9,433 bases of DNA from the NCBI GenBank assembly GCA_030043505.1, contig JASHXN010000092.1:1-9433 (forward strand), read 5' to 3'. Each line of letters begins with the position of its first letter. Within the stretch, counting starts at the first letter, position 1. Positions 1,716 to 9,433 of this stretch are shown here, piece after piece. The notes beneath the pieces were generated by a model. That model did no database searches. It was not told the DNA's origin and saw nothing but the letters and a program-made list of their open reading frames with translations. A program made the translations under genes and the position numbers. This DNA is from Thermoplasmata archaeon (lineage in GTDB: Archaea; Thermoplasmatota; Thermoplasmata; UBA184).

Positions 1716-3005
1716 TTACCCCAGCCGAACGCGCGGGTCCAGCCAAGCGTAGATCACGTCGACCACCAGGTTCGCGATCACGATGATGAACGTGAACAGG
1801 AGAGTCGACCCAAAGAGAACCCCGAAGTCGAGGGCCGGCGACGGGTTGGCGGCGTAGGCGAGCATCGCACCGACCCCGTTCAACTGGAACACCGCTTCGA
1901 TCACGGGAAAGCCTCCGAGGAAGCCTGCGAAAGTCAAGCCAAGAACCGTCACCGTGACGTTGAGCGAGTTCCGGCCGGCGTGACGGTGGACTACGGTAGA
2001 TTCGGGTACGCCGCCGGCACGCGCGGTTCGCACAAAATCGAGATTCATCACTTCGAGCATGCTGTTGCGGACGAAGCGGAGCAGCCCGGCGACCGTGCCG
2101 TAAGCGATGAGGAGCGCGGGGAGAAGGATCCGTAGAACTGAGTCGACGGCGAGCCAGTCGTCATGATGGATGAGGGCATCGATGGTGAGGAACCCCGTCG
2201 GAGTCGAGTGGACCCCATTCCAAATCCACGGTGGGTAGGTTCCGCCGAGGGGAAGCCCCGTGTAACAGGCCGACGAAGGGGGGAGCGAGAAGGTGAACTC
2301 CCAGTCGATGGCCTCCCCCTTCGGGCACCAGGGTGTGTGAACGTTGTACCCCGTATGGGGGAGGAAAACGAGGATGACCCCCATCACCATCAGCGAACCT
2401 AACAGGAACGCCGGGAGCGCGTAGCCCGAGAAGGACAGGACTCGGGCAACTTGGTCGATCGGGCGATTTCGATTCACGGCCGAAGCTGTCCCGAGCGGGA
2501 TCGCAATCGCGAGGATGAGCACGAGCGATAGTCCCGCGAGTTCGATCGTGTAGGGGAGTTCCCACGCGATGGCCGTGGCAACCGGCTTGGCCTCGATCTG
2601 AGGAATCTCCTTGGCAAGATCGCTGCTGTTGGAGACGTTTCCCCACTGGAACGTGAAGCTGCGATAGACGAAGGCGCCCCACTGTTCGATCACGGGCCGG
2701 TTCAGGCCCAGCTGATGTACAAACTCCTCGTAGATCGGATTTTGGCACAACCCCCTCGGGGTGGTGTTGACCGGGGGGGAGATGCATTGGCACGTGTCGT
2801 TCCCCAGCGAACCAGGGTTCAGCGTCTCGCAACTGCAGCTGGGCGCGTAGCCGCACCGCTCCTTCTGAGTTGGACTCCCGAAATGCGAGATCAGCTCGTA
2901 CTGGACCGGTAACGCAGAGAATAGGACGAAAGTGATCGTGACGACCCCGAGCAGTACCGGCAGCAGGAGGAGGGCGCGCCGGGCCACGTAGGTGATCATC
3001 CGCAT
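1716..3005 (-). CDS. dppB: Peptide ABC transporter permease, DppB/OppB-like, with cysteine-rich outer loops
   Basis: First gene of the transporter operon, 429 residues against roughly 310-340 for usual DppB proteins. The N-terminus (ARRALLLLPVLLGVVTITFVLF, residues 8-29) is a textbook DppB first helix. The following outer loop, about 31-145, is expanded and holds six cysteines (51, 57, 59, 72, 74, 87). A second expanded outer segment, about 215-288, adds Cys227 and Cys247. Further helices lie near 150-177, 190-215, 290-312, 347-372 and 398-420. The EAA coupling loop is at 323-346 (DFVRTARAGG, then HAGRNS), and the C-terminus WLDPRVRLG is typical. The start is ATG at 3005, with a second ATG two codons in (2999); a GGGAGAGGGG stretch directly upstream could serve either. 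Extra length and all eight cysteines are on the predicted outer side, consistent with disulphides; that reading is inferred. Confidence 0.94.
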   Translation of the reverse strand: MRMITYVARRALLLLPVLLGVVTITFVLFSALPVQYELISHFGSPTQKERCGYAPSCSCETLNPGSLGNDTCQCISPPVNTTPRGLCQNPIYEEFVHQLGLNRPVIEQWGAFVYRSFTFQWGNVSNSSDLAKEIPQIEAKPVATAIAWELPYTIELAGLSLVLILAIAIPLGTASAVNRNRPIDQVARVLSFSGYALPAFLLGSLMVMGVILVFLPHTGYNVHTPWCPKGEAIDWEFTFSLPPSSACYTGLPLGGTYPPWIWNGVHSTPTGFLTIDALIHHDDWLAVDSVLRILLPALLIAYGTVAGLLRFVRNSMLEVMNLDFVRTARAGGVPESTVVHRHAGRNSLNVTVTVLGLTFAGFLGGFPVIEAVFQLNGVGAMLAYAANPSPALDFGVLFGSTLLFTFIIVIANLVVDVIYAWLDPRVRLG

Positions 3006-3275: not shown

Positions 3276-6200
3276 ATGGGAGCGCAGCGTGGGAAGTGGT
3301 CGCACAACGTAGTTGCAATCGCCGCGGTCGTCCTGATGGTCGCCGGCACGTGGCAAGCCGGCACCGCCCTCGCCGCGATGTCCTCGGCGTCGTCCCCTGC
3401 GGCGGCCGCCGCGTCCACGCCGACCGCGGCGCCGGCCGTCACGGTCCAGACCTCCTCCCACGTAGAAGCTCCCAGCCTCCTGCGGCAGTCGGCCGCCACC
3501 CCGAGTTCCTCGGTCGCTCCTCTCGCGAGCGGTCCGCACCCGGGCACGATCCAGGCGTACGAACCGGTACCGGGCGGGGCGACCACCGTGGACCCCGCTC
3601 TCGCCTACGACACGACCAGCTACGAAGTGATCCTCAACGTCTACGAGACGCTGGTGAGCTACAACGGTAGCTCGACGTCGTCGTTCGTCCCCACCCTCGC
3701 GACGTGCGTCCCCGGCCAGGGTCCGCAGTGCGCCGAGGATTACGGCACCGGTTTCACCGGGATCTTCAACACGTCCGGCAAGAACTTCACCGGCTCGAAC
3801 GGCGTGCCGCTCTACTGGACGTTCGTCATCGACCCGACGGCGCACTTCTACGACCCGTCGACGTCGAAGTCGTGGGGCGTCTACCCCAGCGATGTGATGT
3901 TCTCGATCGCCCGGACCCTCGCGTTCAGCGACATCCCCTACGCGACCAAGACCTCGGGCTGGATCATGGCCCAGGCGCTGCTGCCGCCCGGCAAGTCGTC
4001 GTTCGACAAGGACCTCCACTTCCCGTACGACACGACGCCCGGGAACATCCTCGGTTCGATGCTCGTCAACGACAGCGCCTACTGTCCGGCGAAGGCGATG
4101 GACGGCGTCCACGGCCACGGATGCATCACGTTCGTCGCGAACGGAAGCGCGCAGTACTGGCCCGAATTCCTGGACTTCGTGGAGGACAACCTCGGCGCGA
4201 GCGTCGTCCCATGCGGCTGGTTCACTTACGAGGACGCCGGCATCCCGGGCTGGAGCGGCACCTCCGCCGCGAACGGCGACGGTTCGTGCAAGCTCCCCGA
4301 CGGCCAGACGAGCACGACCGGCTCGACCTGGACGAACTATCTCAAGTCGCTGGCCCCCACCTCGTGGGACACTTTCGAGAAGCTCAACAAGCGCTGGCCC
4401 GCCACCCAGCCGAACGTCCGCTGGAGCATGGTCGGCTCGGGCCCGTACTACGGGGCCGTCACCCCGGGCATCAGCTACGCGCTCGCGGCCAACCCGGCGT
4501 ACGTGCAGCCCGCGGGCTGCTCCGGCGCGGAGGGGCTCGCGAAGTACACGGGCTACTGCGACCCGGCGCCGGGCGGCTACATCCCCAACGTCGACGTGAC
4601 GTGGGAGAACGAAGAGGAAGGCGACAGTCTCGGCACCAGCGCCATCCTGGCGGGGACCGCTGACTTCGCGGGCATCTACACGACCGAGACGAGCACGCTC
4701 CTCGGCTTCGTCCACTCGGGGCTGTGGCAGTACAATCTGTTCCCGACGTTGAGCACCGCCTTCACGCCGATTAACCTCGGGGTCAGCGACACGGCGTACA
4801 ACACGACCTTCGCCGGCACGCCGCTGGAGGCGAACCCGATCCCCGAAGAGCTGTTCACCGACCTCGGGCTCCGGAACTTCTACATCAACGCCTACCCGTA
4901 CACGACCGTCGAGGACACGATCAACACCGTCGACAACATCCAGTTCGCGTTCAACGCGGGCGGGCCGATCCCGGAGGGGATGGGCAGCTACTACCCGTCG
5001 AACGTCTCGTGGCCGTACGAGCGGGGCGATCCGACGCAGCCGGCGACGAGCGTCGGCAGCGCGGCGTGGTGGTGGGCCGAGCTGACGACCGTCGGCTCGC
5101 CGTACTACAACTCCACCCTCGTCACGACGTGCACCACGTCGCACCCGTGCACCTGGCCGATCGGCTACTTCGACGGGGCTCCCGCGAACCTCGCGCTGGT
5201 CGACGACTGGTCGGCCGAGATCTACCGGCTGAGCGGCCACACGCTCGACCCGTGGCCGCTGGCCGAGACGTTCACCCAGTTCCTCGCGTCGACCCTGATC
5301 GGGCCGTACGAGTCGCCGTTGGCGAGCGTCGTCGGCTTCGGCTGGGCGCCCGACTATCCGGACCCGACCGACTACGTCGCGCCGATCGTCCAGCCGGACG
5401 GGAGCTACACCGCGCCGGACACGGTCGGCAACCAGCTGTTCCTCCCGCAGTACAGCGACAACGCGACCTGCGGCCACGGCGCCGCCACGTTCGCCGACCT
5501 CGCCTACTGGGCGAAGCAGGCGAACGACCCCGCGGACGGCGACCTGAACTCGACCTGCCAGGGCGTCGCCTACGGCGTCGCGAGCGCGTACATGAAGATC
5601 GCCGGAGCGCTCCCGTCCGGGGCGCAGCGGATCCTCGACTACGACCTGATCGAGCAGATCACCAACGCGCTCGGGCTGTACGTCTGGAACGGCCAGAGCA
5701 ACGAACTGGTCGGCTTCGCGCCGTGGATCAAGGCGTCCTCGATCAACGAGAACCCGGTGATCGGCGGCGGCGGCGACAGCGTTTGGTTCCACGTCGAGTA
5801 CAACACGGTCTACGCGGTGAGCGTCACCGAGCACGGGCTCCCGTCCGGCACGTCGTGGTCGGCGACCCTGGGCCCGACGACCCTCACCTCGACCTCCGCG
5901 ACGATCGCGTTCGCCGACCAGCCGAACGGGACGTACAACTACAGCGTCTCGTTCCAGGCGGGCTACGGCGTGAGCCCGTCGAACGGGACGATCACCGTCG
6001 CGGGCGCGGCGATCGACCAGTCCGTCACCTACACCGCCGTCACCGGACCGACCGCGACGCTCTCGTTCAACGAGACCGGGCTCGTCAGCGGCACGACGTG
6101 GGCGGTCGACGTGGAAGGGTACGGGGAGGTCTCGTCGGACCAGCCGTCGATCTCGTTCGCCCTCCCGCAGAGCACGACGTACCACTACCAGGCGCTGCTC

Positions 6201-7457
6201 GTGCTGGACTACCTGCCGCCGCCGTCCGGCGGCGTCGCCCTCGGTACCGTGCCGGCGACCGTCGCGCTCGCCTACACCCCGACCGTCGCGCCGACGTACA
6301 AGGTGACGTTCACCGAGACCGGCCTCGCGCCCGGCGCCAGCTGGTCGGTCTCGATCGACCCGGCGCACGTCGCGTTCTCGATCTCGACGACGAGCACGAA
6401 CATCAGCTTCTACGAGACGAACGGCAGCTATCCGGTGACGTTCACGCTGCCGGACGGCTACGTCGGTCCGGCAACGACGGCCACCGTGGGCATCAACGGC
6501 AGCGCGCTCTCGGTAACGGTCCCGTGCGCCACGACCGCGGCGGCGTTCGCCGTCACGTTCAGCGAGAAGGGGCTGACGACGGGGATCTCCTGGGCGATCA
6601 CGATCGACAACCTGACGGTCCCCAGTACGACCCCGAGCCTCGGCTTCACGCTGCCGAACGCGGCGTACCCGTGGACGCTCACGCCGATTCCCGGCTGGGT
6701 CGCGACGAACACCTCCGGTGTTGCGACCGTCGCCGGGAAGGCGCTGGCGGTCTCGACGAAGTTCCACCAGTACACCTTCGGAGTGACGTTCCTGGAGGGC
6801 GGGCTCCCCGGCGGCACGGTCTGGAACGTCACGCTGGTGAACGGCACCGTGACGACGAAGCTGGGCGGCTCGTCGACGACGCTCTCCTCGGCGCTGCCGA
6901 ACGGGTCGTTCAGTTACACGGTGAGCTCGGCGGCGGACTTCACGCCGACCCCGGGGACTGCGATGGGCACCGTGGCCGCGGGCGCGACCGAGGTCGTGGT
7001 CGTCTTCAGCCAGAACTACAACGTCTCGTTCGCCCCGAGCGGTCTCAAGTCGGGGACGAGCTGGACCGTCTACTTCGGCGGCACGTCGCTCACGGAATCG
7101 AACCTGACGCCGATGAACTTCAGCGTCCCGAACAACACGTGGGCGTTCAGCGCCTCCGCGAGCGGCTACGCGGCCTCGCCGGCCGGCGGGCTCGTCCACG
7201 TCAACGGCCAGGCGATGAACGTGACGATCTCCTTCAGCGCGACCAAGGCGTCGTCGACGTCCCTGAGCACGCTCGCCTACGCGATCATCGGCGTCTTCGC
7301 GTTCCTGACGCTGCTCGGCTTCGGCCTCGCCGCGCACTACGCCGGCCGTCGACCGCCCGCGACCCCGCCCTCGTCGTGGAGCGGCGAGAAGGGCGCGGAC
7401 GGCGGGACGTCGGGCGACGCGGGCGGATCGACCGCCCCGGAGTCGAAGTCGCCGTAA
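3276..7457 (+). CDS. Membrane-anchored peptide-binding protein (SBP_bac_5) with six stalk repeats and a C-terminal membrane helix
   Basis: Extracytoplasmic peptide-binding component, 1393 residues, presumed partner of the divergent permeases. Order: basic start and hydrophobic core (10-33), cleavage near Ala33/Ala34; Ala/Ser/Thr/Pro linker (35-90); SBP_bac_5 domain (about 92-835); six repeats of 77-83 residues starting at 846, 927, 1008, 1091, 1168 and 1248; membrane helix (1330-1357); hydrophilic tail rich in Gly, Ser and charged residues. Family marks in the binding domain include GGATTVDPALAYD, then VYETLV near 122, YPSDVMFSIARTL near 203, a GSGPYY motif near 388 and APDYPDPTDY near 691. 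No lipobox is seen, so anchoring is by the C-terminal helix. The binding domain is about 750 residues, well above the usual 450-550. It has 12 cysteines in six close pairs (144/152, 270/283, 313/338, 415/428, 619/625, 732/761); one more lies at 1084. There are many N-x-S/T sites, suggesting glycosylation. Exact ligand is unknown. Confidence 0.92.
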   Translation: MGAQRGKWSHNVVAIAAVVLMVAGTWQAGTALAAMSSASSPAAAAASTPTAAPAVTVQTSSHVEAPSLLRQSAATPSSSVAPLASGPHPGTIQAYEPVPGGATTVDPALAYDTTSYEVILNVYETLVSYNGSSTSSFVPTLATCVPGQGPQCAEDYGTGFTGIFNTSGKNFTGSNGVPLYWTFVIDPTAHFYDPSTSKSWGVYPSDVMFSIARTLAFSDIPYATKTSGWIMAQALLPPGKSSFDKDLHFPYDTTPGNILGSMLVNDSAYCPAKAMDGVHGHGCITFVANGSAQYWPEFLDFVEDNLGASVVPCGWFTYEDAGIPGWSGTSAANGDGSCKLPDGQTSTTGSTWTNYLKSLAPTSWDTFEKLNKRWPATQPNVRWSMVGSGPYYGAVTPGISYALAANPAYVQPAGCSGAEGLAKYTGYCDPAPGGYIPNVDVTWENEEEGDSLGTSAILAGTADFAGIYTTETSTLLGFVHSGLWQYNLFPTLSTAFTPINLGVSDTAYNTTFAGTPLEANPIPEELFTDLGLRNFYINAYPYTTVEDTINTVDNIQFAFNAGGPIPEGMGSYYPSNVSWPYERGDPTQPATSVGSAAWWWAELTTVGSPYYNSTLVTTCTTSHPCTWPIGYFDGAPANLALVDDWSAEIYRLSGHTLDPWPLAETFTQFLASTLIGPYESPLASVVGFGWAPDYPDPTDYVAPIVQPDGSYTAPDTVGNQLFLPQYSDNATCGHGAATFADLAYWAKQANDPADGDLNSTCQGVAYGVASAYMKIAGALPSGAQRILDYDLIEQITNALGLYVWNGQSNELVGFAPWIKASSINENPVIGGGGDSVWFHVEYNTVYAVSVTEHGLPSGTSWSATLGPTTLTSTSATIAFADQPNGTYNYSVSFQAGYGVSPSNGTITVAGAAIDQSVTYTAVTGPTATLSFNETGLVSGTTWAVDVEGYGEVSSDQPSISFALPQSTTYHYQALLVLDYLPPPSGGVALGTVPATVALAYTPTVAPTYKVTFTETGLAPGASWSVSIDPAHVAFSISTTSTNISFYETNGSYPVTFTLPDGYVGPATTATVGINGSALSVTVPCATTAAAFAVTFSEKGLTTGISWAITIDNLTVPSTTPSLGFTLPNAAYPWTLTPIPGWVATNTSGVATVAGKALAVSTKFHQYTFGVTFLEGGLPGGTVWNVTLVNGTVTTKLGGSSTTLSSALPNGSFSYTVSSAADFTPTPGTAMGTVAAGATEVVVVFSQNYNVSFAPSGLKSGTSWTVYFGGTSLTESNLTPMNFSVPNNTWAFSASASGYAASPAGGLVHVNGQAMNVTISFSATKASSTSLSTLAYAIIGVFAFLTLLGFGLAAHYAGRRPPATPPSSWSGEKGADGGTSGDAGGSTAPESKSP
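5811..7238 (+). repeat. Six tandem protein repeats of about 80 residues forming a predicted beta-rich stalk
   Basis: Each unit opens with an aromatic or small residue, then V/L-S/T-F/V, E-x-GL, x-x-G, x-x-W and a beta strand, as in YKVTFTETGLAPGASWSVSI. Units start at residues 846, 927, 1008, 1091, 1168 and 1248 of the protein. Unit 6 (YNVSFAPSGLKSGTSW) has lost the Glu. A second conserved spot, LPNGSF/LPNAAY/QPNGTY, lies about 45-55 residues into a unit. Such repeats are familiar in archaeal surface proteins and probably fold as Ig-like or PEGA-like beta domains. The units differ in DNA sequence, so they are old duplications or strongly diverged rather than fresh tandem copies. Confidence 0.85.
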
Positions 7458-7505: not shown

Positions 7506-7886
7506 CTACAGCAGCTCGAGCGCGCCGGTCACCGGTTCCAGCGTACGGTCCGGCGCCGGGCCCAGGCCGAGGCACGTTCGGGTCCCGGCCGGCACCTCGG
7601 TCAGGCCCGCGTCCTCGACCCACACGGTCGGGATGCCGGCGTCGCGCGCCCGCCGTTCGACCTCCTCGAGATCGCGGAGCGTCGGGACGACCAGGGCGAT
7701 CTTTCGCTGGCCCTCCGCGTACCACGCCTCGAACTCGCGGTGGTCGTGCTCTTCCGCGCGCCGGGCGAGCATCACCGCGGCGTGCGCCACCTGCACCGCC
7801 GCCTTGCCGGCGGTGAGGCGCAGCTCGCTCCGGACCACGACCACGAGCTTGTGCCCGGTCCCGGGAGCCCCCCCGCGCCTAGGCAA
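7506..7886 (-). CDS. pth2: Peptidyl-tRNA hydrolase, Pth2 family
   Basis: Cytoplasmic enzyme that cleaves the ester bond of peptidyl-tRNAs released from stalled ribosomes, recycling the tRNA; 126 residues, usual family size about 115-125. Family marks run the whole length: KLVVVVRSEL (13-22), the active-site segment AGKAAVQVAHA (26-36, Lys28, Gln32 and His35 conserved), W55 with GQRKIAL (59-65), and EDAGLTEVPAGTRTCLGLGPAP (91-112) with Asp92 and the GT motif, then a typical VTGALELL end. The usual Arg in DAGRT is Leu95 here. The start is TTG at 7886, overlapping the end of the upstream gene by eight bases and giving a 12-residue Gly/Arg/Pro-rich lead before the first strand. No ATG is available; GTG at residue 15 would remove part of that strand. 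The overlap suggests coupled translation with the upstream membrane protein. Confidence 0.95.
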   Translation of the reverse strand: MPRRGGAPGTGHKLVVVVRSELRLTAGKAAVQVAHAAVMLARRAEEHDHREFEAWYAEGQRKIALVVPTLRDLEEVERRARDAGIPTVWVEDAGLTEVPAGTRTCLGLGPAPDRTLEPVTGALELL

Positions 7887-8412
7887 AGTACGATGCCTCC
7901 TGCCGTTCGCGCAGGCTGCGCTCCTGCCGCCGGAGTTCCTCCAGCCGCCCCTCGATCTCGGGCGCGGCGGCGCCCGCGCCGCGGGCGAGCTGGCGCTCCA
8001 GGCGGAGGCGCTGGCGCTGGAGCCGGTCGAGGTCGACGCTCAGCTGCCACGGGTCCTGCTCGGGAGGGAGTTCGGAGGCCCGAGGCGGAGGCGCCGTCCG
8101 CGCGTAGGCGCCCTGGAGCCAGCCGGCCACGAAGGCGACCGCCGCGATCCCGGCCAGCGCCTCCTCCAGCAGCGGATCGCTCCAGCTCGCGTGGAAGCCG
8201 CCGGGCGCCACCGTGAGCAACAGCTCCCCCACGAGCACCGTCAAGACCACGCTCAGGACGAGGCCGAGCGCGGCGAGCTCGAGCGCCCAGCGGAGACCGT
8301 TCGGGCCCCGGACCCTCCGCTCGGGGAAGACCGCCTTCGCGACGAGCGCGCCGGGGAGGACGAAGAGGAGCAGGAGGCCGCCCGCGGCTTGTGCGACCGA
8401 CGCCGGGCCCAT
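7879..8412 (-). CDS. Small membrane protein with three predicted helices and a C-terminal coiled coil, weakly DUF1616-like
   Basis: A 177-residue protein of unknown function, encoded one base after the SRP54 stop and overlapping pth2 by eight bases, so almost surely co-transcribed with both. The first helix (about 9-29) carries LLLLFVLPGALVAKAVFP, and the second lies at 43-68. These resemble the start of archaeal DUF1616 proteins (a PG then FP pattern); the match is by eye and weak. A third helix lies at about 84-103. A Pro-rich link (106-121) leads to a very charged Arg/Glu/Leu/Gln helix (about 123-172) expected to form a coiled coil. An Ala/Gly break near 145-150 splits it into two helical halves. 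DUF106 (EMC3/YidC-like) was considered because of the SRP54 neighbour, but there the coiled coil lies between helices 1 and 2. A link to membrane-protein biogenesis is only suggested by position. Confidence 0.85.
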   Translation of the reverse strand: MGPASVAQAAGGLLLLFVLPGALVAKAVFPERRVRGPNGLRWALELAALGLVLSVVLTVLVGELLLTVAPGGFHASWSDPLLEEALAGIAAVAFVAGWLQGAYARTAPPPRASELPPEQDPWQLSVDLDRLQRQRLRLERQLARGAGAAAPEIEGRLEELRRQERSLRERQEASYFA

Positions 8413-8413
8413 G

Positions 8414-9433
8414 CTAGGTCCCGGGGTTGGCGTCCGGCATTCCGCCGGCGAACTGCTTCTCGAGCTGGCGGCGGAGCCGACGGTTGGAGACGAGACCGTG
8501 CGCCGCCTTGCGGGTCCCTTCGTACTGCTTGAGCAGCATCCGGACCTCCTGCGGCTTCTGCCCGCTCCCGCGGGCGATCCGGTGCACCCGTTCGGCCTTG
8601 ATCAGCTGGGCGTCGTCCAGCTCCTCGGACGTCATCGAGTCGAGGATCGCCCGGTAGCGGAGCAGCCGCCGTTGCGACTCGTCGAGCTGCTTCTCGTCGA
8701 GCTTCGCCGGGCCGAGCGTCGGGAACATCGAGACGAGCTTCGAGAACGGGCCCATCTGCCCGAGCGACTCGAGCTGGGTGCGCATGTCGCGCAGCGTGAA
8801 CCGGCCGCTGAGCAACTTCTGGGCGGCCTCCTCGGCCGCTTCCTTGTTCGACAGCTCCTCGAACCGCTCCAGCAGCGTCTGGATGTCGCCCATCCCGAGG
8901 AGCCGGGAGACGAAGCGGGTCGGCTCGAACCGCTCCAGCTCGTCCAGATGCTCGCCGGTGCCGAGGAACACGATCGGGGCGCCGCTCGCCGCGACCGCCG
9001 AAAGGGCGCCGCCGCCTTTCGCCGACCCGTCCAGCTTCGTGAGGATCACGCCGGTGAGACCGACCGCCTTGTGGAACGCCTCCGCGCTCCGCCCGGCCGT
9101 CTGGCCCATGGAGGCATCCAGAACGAGGAACACCTCGTCCGGTGCGAGCACCTCCTTGACGCGCTTCAACTCGGCGATCAGCTCTTCGTCGAGGCCGCTG
9201 CGTCCGGCCGTGTCGACGATCGTCGCGACGTGCGGGGCGACCTGCGCGAGCGCGCGCTCGACGATCCGCTCCGCCCGACGCTCGGCCCGGTCGGAGTAGA
9301 AGTCAGCGCCGATCTTCTTGGCGAGCTGCTCCAGCTGGTCGATCGCCGCCGGTCGGTGGATGTCCGCGCCGACGAGGGCGACGCGGATCCCCTTCTTCTG
9401 AAGGTGCCGCGCGAGCTTCGCCGCGGTCGTAGT
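8414..9433 (-). CDS. srp54: Signal recognition particle protein SRP54 (N-terminus beyond right edge)
   Basis: GTPase that binds signal sequences and 7S RNA and delivers ribosomes to the membrane through its receptor FtsY. The window holds the last 339 residues, beginning TTTAAKLARHL just after the P-loop GKT; about 108 residues (the N domain and P-loop) are missing, giving about 447 in total, normal for the family. Visible marks, in window numbering: GADIHRPAAIDQL (insertion-box region, about 24-36), DTAGR at 74-78, TKLDG near 132-136 followed by SAKGGGALS, and GTGE near 159. The M domain follows at about 195-335, with a conserved FTLRDMRTQLESLGQMGPFSKL helix, and ends in the RNA-binding signature RIARGSG then VRMLLKQYE. 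The stop is one base from the next gene's ATG. Internal TTG at 9169 is not the start, because conserved G-domain motifs lie upstream of it. Confidence 0.97.
   Translation of the reverse strand, partial: TTTAAKLARHLQKKGIRVALVGADIHRPAAIDQLEQLAKKIGADFYSDRAERRAERIVERALAQVAPHVATIVDTAGRSGLDEELIAELKRVKEVLAPDEVFLVLDASMGQTAGRSAEAFHKAVGLTGVILTKLDGSAKGGGALSAVAASGAPIVFLGTGEHLDELERFEPTRFVSRLLGMGDIQTLLERFEELSNKEAAEEAAQKLLSGRFTLRDMRTQLESLGQMGPFSKLVSMFPTLGPAKLDEKQLDESQRRLLRYRAILDSMTSEELDDAQLIKAERVHRIARGSGQKPQEVRMLLKQYEGTRKAAHGLVSNRRLRRQLEKQFAGGMPDANPGT

Follow-up and report, generated by a model that had tools for sequence, protein, structure and literature searches.

The window considered here, a stretch of 9,433 nucleotides from a Thermoplasmata archaeon (assembly GCA_030043505.1, contig JASHXN010000092.1), carries a single gene on its plus strand (3276-7457, ATG start), whose product of 1393 residues is identified by sequence, hydropathy and structure prediction as a C-terminally anchored (C-anchored), stalked peptide-binding protein. 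This protein is probably the substrate receptor of a DppBCD/F-type peptide ATP-binding cassette (ABC) importer, its head being borne on a rod that would act as an evolvable spacer, anchored by a single membrane helix and delivering peptides by swinging. The reading builds on the head fold, the six folded repeats, the helix, the adjoining permease genes and the gain and loss of whole repeats among relatives, each established by sequence or prediction. The binding proteins of textbook importers are free or short-tethered. A natural length series was found on similar heads, ranging from one to six repeats and reaching at least 15 in one relative, and the same head family is anchored at either end; with this series, the permissible distance and tightness of the link between a binding protein and its permease become directly testable. 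The analysis also gives a hint that archaea feeding on protein may carry a digestion layer set on stalks at their surface.

The one-chain arrangement proposed in an earlier note on this DNA, i.e. a signal peptide, a head, six repeats, a C-terminal helix and a tail, was confirmed by sequence, hydropathy and structure prediction. The signal peptide (residues 1-33, 3276-3374) displays a hydrophobic core at residues 12-30 and an AxA motif at 31-33, where cleavage is presumed. A linker rich in Ala, Ser, Thr and Pro (residues 34-84, 3375-3527) precedes the head.

Binding head and permease genes

The head (residues 85-842, 3528-5801), delimited by fold matches and alignment, has the two-lobe cluster-C fold of substrate-binding protein (SBP) family 5 (PF00496), which includes OppA and DppA (solved examples 8are, 8ay0, 1dpp and 8z1z). 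The chains of these proteins span about 460-520 residues in the fold matches, whereas the window head comprises about 755; the window protein further differs by a membrane stalk and by 12 Cys in the head, conserved in an alignment of 36 sequences. Direct Pfam and PDB sequence searches gave no significant SBP match for the window protein or its profiles; PF00496, at E<=1, did not match the window protein. NCBIfam returned two weak models, with E values of 0.068 for an OppA model and 0.22 for the other. A homology search yielded 103 proteins (numbered P), 49 of which combine a complete head and a C-terminal helix as assigned by script. Of the five head-bearing relatives scanned, P0038, P0045 and P0095 (39-45% identical to the window protein) passed the PF00496 cut-off, while P0062 and P0065 fell short of it.

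The GW..D motif of peptide-binding SBPs is present in 53 of 60 C-anchored heads under a strict pattern and in 57 under a loose one. The amino group of the bound peptide is held by Asp419 in OppA and by Asp408 in DppA (PMC9967938, PMC5736914; statements resting on papers cited by PMC number refer here and below to the part of each source that was available). Judged by the motif and these papers, Asp693 in GWAPDYPDP (5352-5354) is the candidate counterpart of both residues and would hold the amino group likewise.

In a phylum sample with at most two candidates scored per genome, the head profile was matched in 91 of 292 genomes at 1e-3 and in only 14 at 1e-80 or better; the close family is therefore narrow. 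The closest loci in the genome collection are from Thermoplasmata metagenome-assembled genomes (MAGs), two of the 79 loci being labelled 'bacterium' and two 'Euryarchaeota'. A second family member within one genome (G002:C6:21914-25160) contains stops within the match and may be a copy in decay or a product of misassembly.

The permease genes are located on the minus strand, divergent from the binding protein gene: dppB/oppB (1716-3005; PF00528 match at 3.8e-30 in the Pfam scan), dppC/oppC (509-1681; 3.7e-25) and the N-terminal part of the ATPase gene dppD/oppD (3-500; Walker A GETGCGKS), which is cut by the window edge and for which a GTG start at 500 was assumed. Complete C-anchored loci number 17 with that of the window. 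The order of SBP, repeats and membrane helix, which the earlier note proposed to survey near dppBC, was found beside an adjacent and divergent dppB in 10 of these, and dppBC are co-directional in one more. In both DppB, with a long Cys-bearing loop past its first helix, and DppC, a stretch of about 120 residues separates the first hydrophobic segment from the second; it lies at roughly residues 30-155 in DppB, where it holds six Cys, and at roughly 42-160 in DppC, where it holds four. Since permease frames of similar length adjoin the N-terminally anchored (N-anchored) relatives, these long stretches go with the large head and not with the stalk.

The stalk

Residues 844-1324, about 480 in all, are filled according to structure prediction by six folded repeats, located at residues 844-922 (5805-6041), 925-1003 (6048-6284), 1006-1087 (6291-6536), 1089-1165 (6540-6770), 1165-1246 (6768-7013) and, next to the membrane, 1246-1324 (7011-7247). 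Among the closest known systems are the CnaB/prealbumin-like stalk domains of surface proteins (TIE 6fwv, SpaA 3htl, SdrD 8vdk, CnaB2 8bdw and SlaB 8qox). The possibility that the repeats build part of the binding head was rejected, as the fold matches stop at residue 845 and repeat number varies on alike heads, although a contact between repeat 1 and the head may exist; the head thus stands on a separate stalk, as the earlier note had claimed.

In the 49 proteins with complete head and helix, the number of repeats is six in 18, four in 12, three in 12, two in three, one in two and zero in two. Identity to the window head is 70.3% for P0020 and 69.4% for P0023, the two forms with a single repeat. 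Comparison of the 18 six-repeat proteins allowed repeat classes to be defined by position: in 670 of 918 comparisons, a repeat was best matched by the one at its own position in the other protein. A recent tandem duplication of the six repeats was rejected, mean identity being 43.3% for same-position repeats across proteins vs 33.9% between different positions. In these class assignments, some of which have small margins, classes 1, 2, 3 and 6 were read in 8 of the 12 four-repeat helix-bearing forms, while class 4 was assigned in none of the 12 and class 5 in one. Both one-repeat forms were read as class 1, which is also the first repeat in 27 of 31 shorter helix-bearing relatives; a rule that repeat 1 is always kept was dropped upon inspection of P0063, P0073, P0074 and P0076, where the first repeat does not read as class 1. 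As repeat counts and classes vary among relatives, whole domains have been gained or lost, and stalk length is uncoupled from the head. Variable length on similar heads suggests that the stalk is an adjustable spacer.

Several individual cases were recorded as well. In a MAG labelled 'bacterium', a relative (L045:293-6235) displays at least 15 repeats, the contig ending there. MAG JOPF098 encodes a pair of heads with 84.2% identity (L002 2102-6418 and L010 3049-6336), the chain of one comprising six repeats and a helix, that of the other two repeats and no helix. P0030/P0043 and P0029/P0054 are putative further pairs of this kind.

Membrane anchor and cytosolic tail

The last repeat is followed by a short Ser/Thr hinge (residues 1325-1332, 7248-7271), of low predicted local distance difference test (pLDDT) score, and by a transmembrane helix (predicted at residues 1329-1355, 7260-7340, with a hydrophobic core at 1333-1351). 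Hydropathy and the predicted helix both indicate that this C-terminal stretch spans the membrane, in agreement with the earlier note, and together with the AxA-bearing signal peptide they define a protein held at its C-terminus. Behind Arg1358-Arg1359, the cytosolic tail carries the motif PPATPPSSW (residues 1360-1368, 7353-7379), of which P1365 and W1368 are invariant in the alignment of the 18 six-repeat proteins. In the homology search, 51 of the proteins bear a helix, and 40 of these have the pattern PP(0-9)W in the tail, within a span of 45 residues, vs 3 of 18 other stalk-helix proteins (Fisher p 5.8e-6, calculated on related and not independent rows). The tail, of median length about 40 residues, is predicted to be disordered. 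Such a conserved motif is more than a purely passive anchor would need.

This enrichment and the two invariant residues would be accounted for if the receptor were a lasting part of the transporter, the tail PPxxPPxxW binding the ATPase or the permease from inside and the head never leaving its own permease. We hold this to be unlikely: the partner of the tail is putative, its predicted disorder speaks against the idea, the Trp is missing from a second stalked SBP (L139, described below), the pattern also occurs in three other proteins (L130, L134 and L141), and no such tail is present in the unanchored family members inspected. The helix could also serve only as a sorting signal or cleavage site, in which case the receptor would be released or moved to an outer layer and held there by its repeats. 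Sorting tails are short, unlike the tail described here with its conserved motif, and we regard this second alternative as improbable, though the share of forms that lack a helix makes it slightly more likely and the favoured reading slightly less so.

The idea that forms without a helix are pure assembly artefacts was rejected in part. Several share a C-terminal ending, while P0022 appears to contain a frame-shift and some other records are truncated. Common endings, L.A...GR or LA.VP.RGG, were noted by eye in the unanchored P0039, P0043, P0046, P0051, P0054, P0055 and P0058 and in P0035, P0041 and P0057.

A stalk shared with other surface proteins

The family profile matched 22 to 67 stretches per genome in eight related genomes and, among the matches listed, most are repeats in other proteins. 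Twenty open reading frames with stalk repeats were taken by choice from these matches; 18 of them display a C-terminal helix by hydropathy. In the 17 that were scanned with Pfam, the heads are thermopsin (4), propeller-like (4, some below the Pfam cut-off), kumamolisin pro-domain (3), beta-helix/NosD (2) and SBP_bac_5 (1), three having no clear head. The stalk is thus not particular to this transporter: judging from these sequences, it is a cassette found beneath many surface proteins of related archaea. In the second SBP_bac_5 protein (L139:807-4040, plus strand), a head of canonical size (2.7e-38) is followed by four stalk repeats and by a helix at the C-terminus. In P0065 and L133, a zinc ribbon lies behind the helix at the C-terminus, as indicated by weak Pfam matches.

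The occurrence of the repeats in proteins of many kinds, together with the extra PEGA, propeller or zinc-ribbon parts of some relatives, could be taken to mean that the head is a peptide sensor or an adhesin rather than a transport receptor, and that the repeats bind polymers. We consider this very unlikely, as dppB adjoins the gene in 11 of 17 loci and the GW..D motif is retained in most C-anchored heads under either pattern.

Published genomes of the Lutacidiplasmatales encode thermopsin, S53 and A4 peptidases together with a peptide/nickel ABC system (PMC9287336). A surface peptide-harvesting layer may tentatively be envisaged, although we find it rather doubtful at present, in which acid proteases, propellers and receptors would share one exchangeable stalk-plus-helix cassette, repeat number would be the evolutionary dial matching the receptor to protease height, and the cytosolic Trp tail would keep the receptor with the importer.

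Proposed mechanism

The swinging-receptor reading favoured at the outset can be summarized as follows. Outside the cell, the head would close on a peptide from the top of a rod made up of six beta-sandwich domains and anchored in the membrane by the single helix. Taking 3.5-4 nm for each domain, a rod of about 20-25 nm may be estimated if straight. As an evolvable spacer, this rod would place the head at the working height of the stalked acid proteases of such cells. Delivery would occur when the rod swings at the hinge above the membrane and at the domain joints, lowering the head onto a permease within reach; the long stretches of DppB and DppC, if external, could make a raised docking surface. 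A fixed neck is the probable role of repeat 1, which most forms retain, and adjustment would fall to the repeats after it.

A number of observations weigh against this reading. Of the 78 proteins that combine repeats and a complete head, 31 show no C-terminal helix, some of these records being cut, and the anchor is therefore not universal. In six of the 17 C-anchored loci no dppB was found nearby, the upstream sequence covering 102 bases in one (L003), 1.7 and 2.1 kb in two and 4 to 8 kb in three. The co-display of receptor and proteases is drawn from related genomes. One-repeat forms exist, hence a long stalk is not needed, and we infer both the benefit of six repeats and the reach of the head to DppBC. 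Of the stalked receptor described in the earlier note, the head, the separate stalk and the C-terminal helix stood; a stalk of about 480 residues proved not to be essential to the family, heads about 70% identical being set on one repeat. The elevation of the head through an S-layer or glycan coat found no support for this organism, the sole hint being one of glycosylation, from an excess of N-X-S/T sequons in the stalk (17 vs 5.8 in shuffles), which may merely reflect the NGT turn of the repeat.

Comparison with known systems

Archaeal SBPs anchored at the C-terminus go under the class name 'di/oligopeptide', and cases are found in Sulfolobus. SBP anchoring by a C-terminal helix in combination with a class I signal has been described before (PMC2910488), and 2 of 15 SBPs of Thermoproteus tenax carry a C-terminal helix behind a Ser/Thr linker (PMC3189178). 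The latter have in common with the window protein a Sec-type signal peptide, an external SBP, one C-terminal membrane helix and ABC permeases. Where they display a Ser/Thr linker before the helix, the window protein has about 480 residues of folded repeats, variable in number among relatives, and some 8-10 linker residues, only a short Ser/Thr stretch being left. It works like the C-anchored Ser/Thr-linker class and was not assigned to it because folded repeats fill residues 844-1324. The earlier note had contrasted the chain with ABC binding proteins that are usually free, lipid-anchored or simply tethered; C-terminal anchoring of archaeal SBPs was already known (PMC3189178).

The Sulfolobus class III (type IV pilin-like) SBPs of the bindosome (PMC2910488) are anchored at the opposite end, the window protein being without such an N-terminus. 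Tetrabrachion of Staphylothermus (PMC5744192), from an organism that also uses peptides, carries a protease on its surface stalk, but with different proteins and a different fold, and the available part of that source describes no stalk-borne binding protein. No description of an SBP on such a stalk was recognised in a literature search whose coverage mostly excluded subscription journals.

N-anchored relatives and history of the anchor

In the N-anchored family members, a helix is located ahead of the head and none behind. Their N-termini (12 seen, among them L024, L026, L036, L050, L064 and L076) read RRG[IL]S or R[AG]LS and then a helix, which we take to resemble archaeal type IV pilin (class III) signals; these relatives are a possible bindosome-like case in Thermoplasmatota. 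In 46 complete N-anchored loci, dppC is convergent downstream in 18 (17 of them at 3.4-3.9 kb) and was not found in 28, several of which end at contig edges. PKD labels were assigned to 9 of the 103 homologues and confirmed in P0095.

All 20 more distant relatives, hand-chosen from the weaker matches of the phylum search, are N-anchored and lack repeats. In an IQ-TREE tree of 72 heads, hand-picked from 160 rows, the repeat-bearing heads form one clade (SH-aLRT 99). Among those left out were the truncated P0042, L018 and L034 (within the repeat clade of the 160-row FastTree tree, with automatic label N) as well as P0098 and P0099. An approximately unbiased test did not reject the N-anchored members as one clade either (p 0.241), which leaves the direction of change unaltered because the outgroup is N-anchored. 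C-anchoring as the ancestral state was not favoured, given the 20 distant relatives and the single clade of repeat-bearing heads. On these sequences, the simplest history would be a single change, in which an N-terminal anchor gave way to C-terminal repeats, P0098 and P0099 being unexplained helix exceptions outside the tree. These two are distant members on long branches outside the repeat clade, with PKD labels and a C-terminal helix and without stalk repeats; a C-terminal helix therefore also arose, or was kept, outside that clade.

Downstream of the binding protein gene, the minus strand of the window (7506-9433) carries genes for PTH2 and SRP54 and one with weak similarity to DUF1616.
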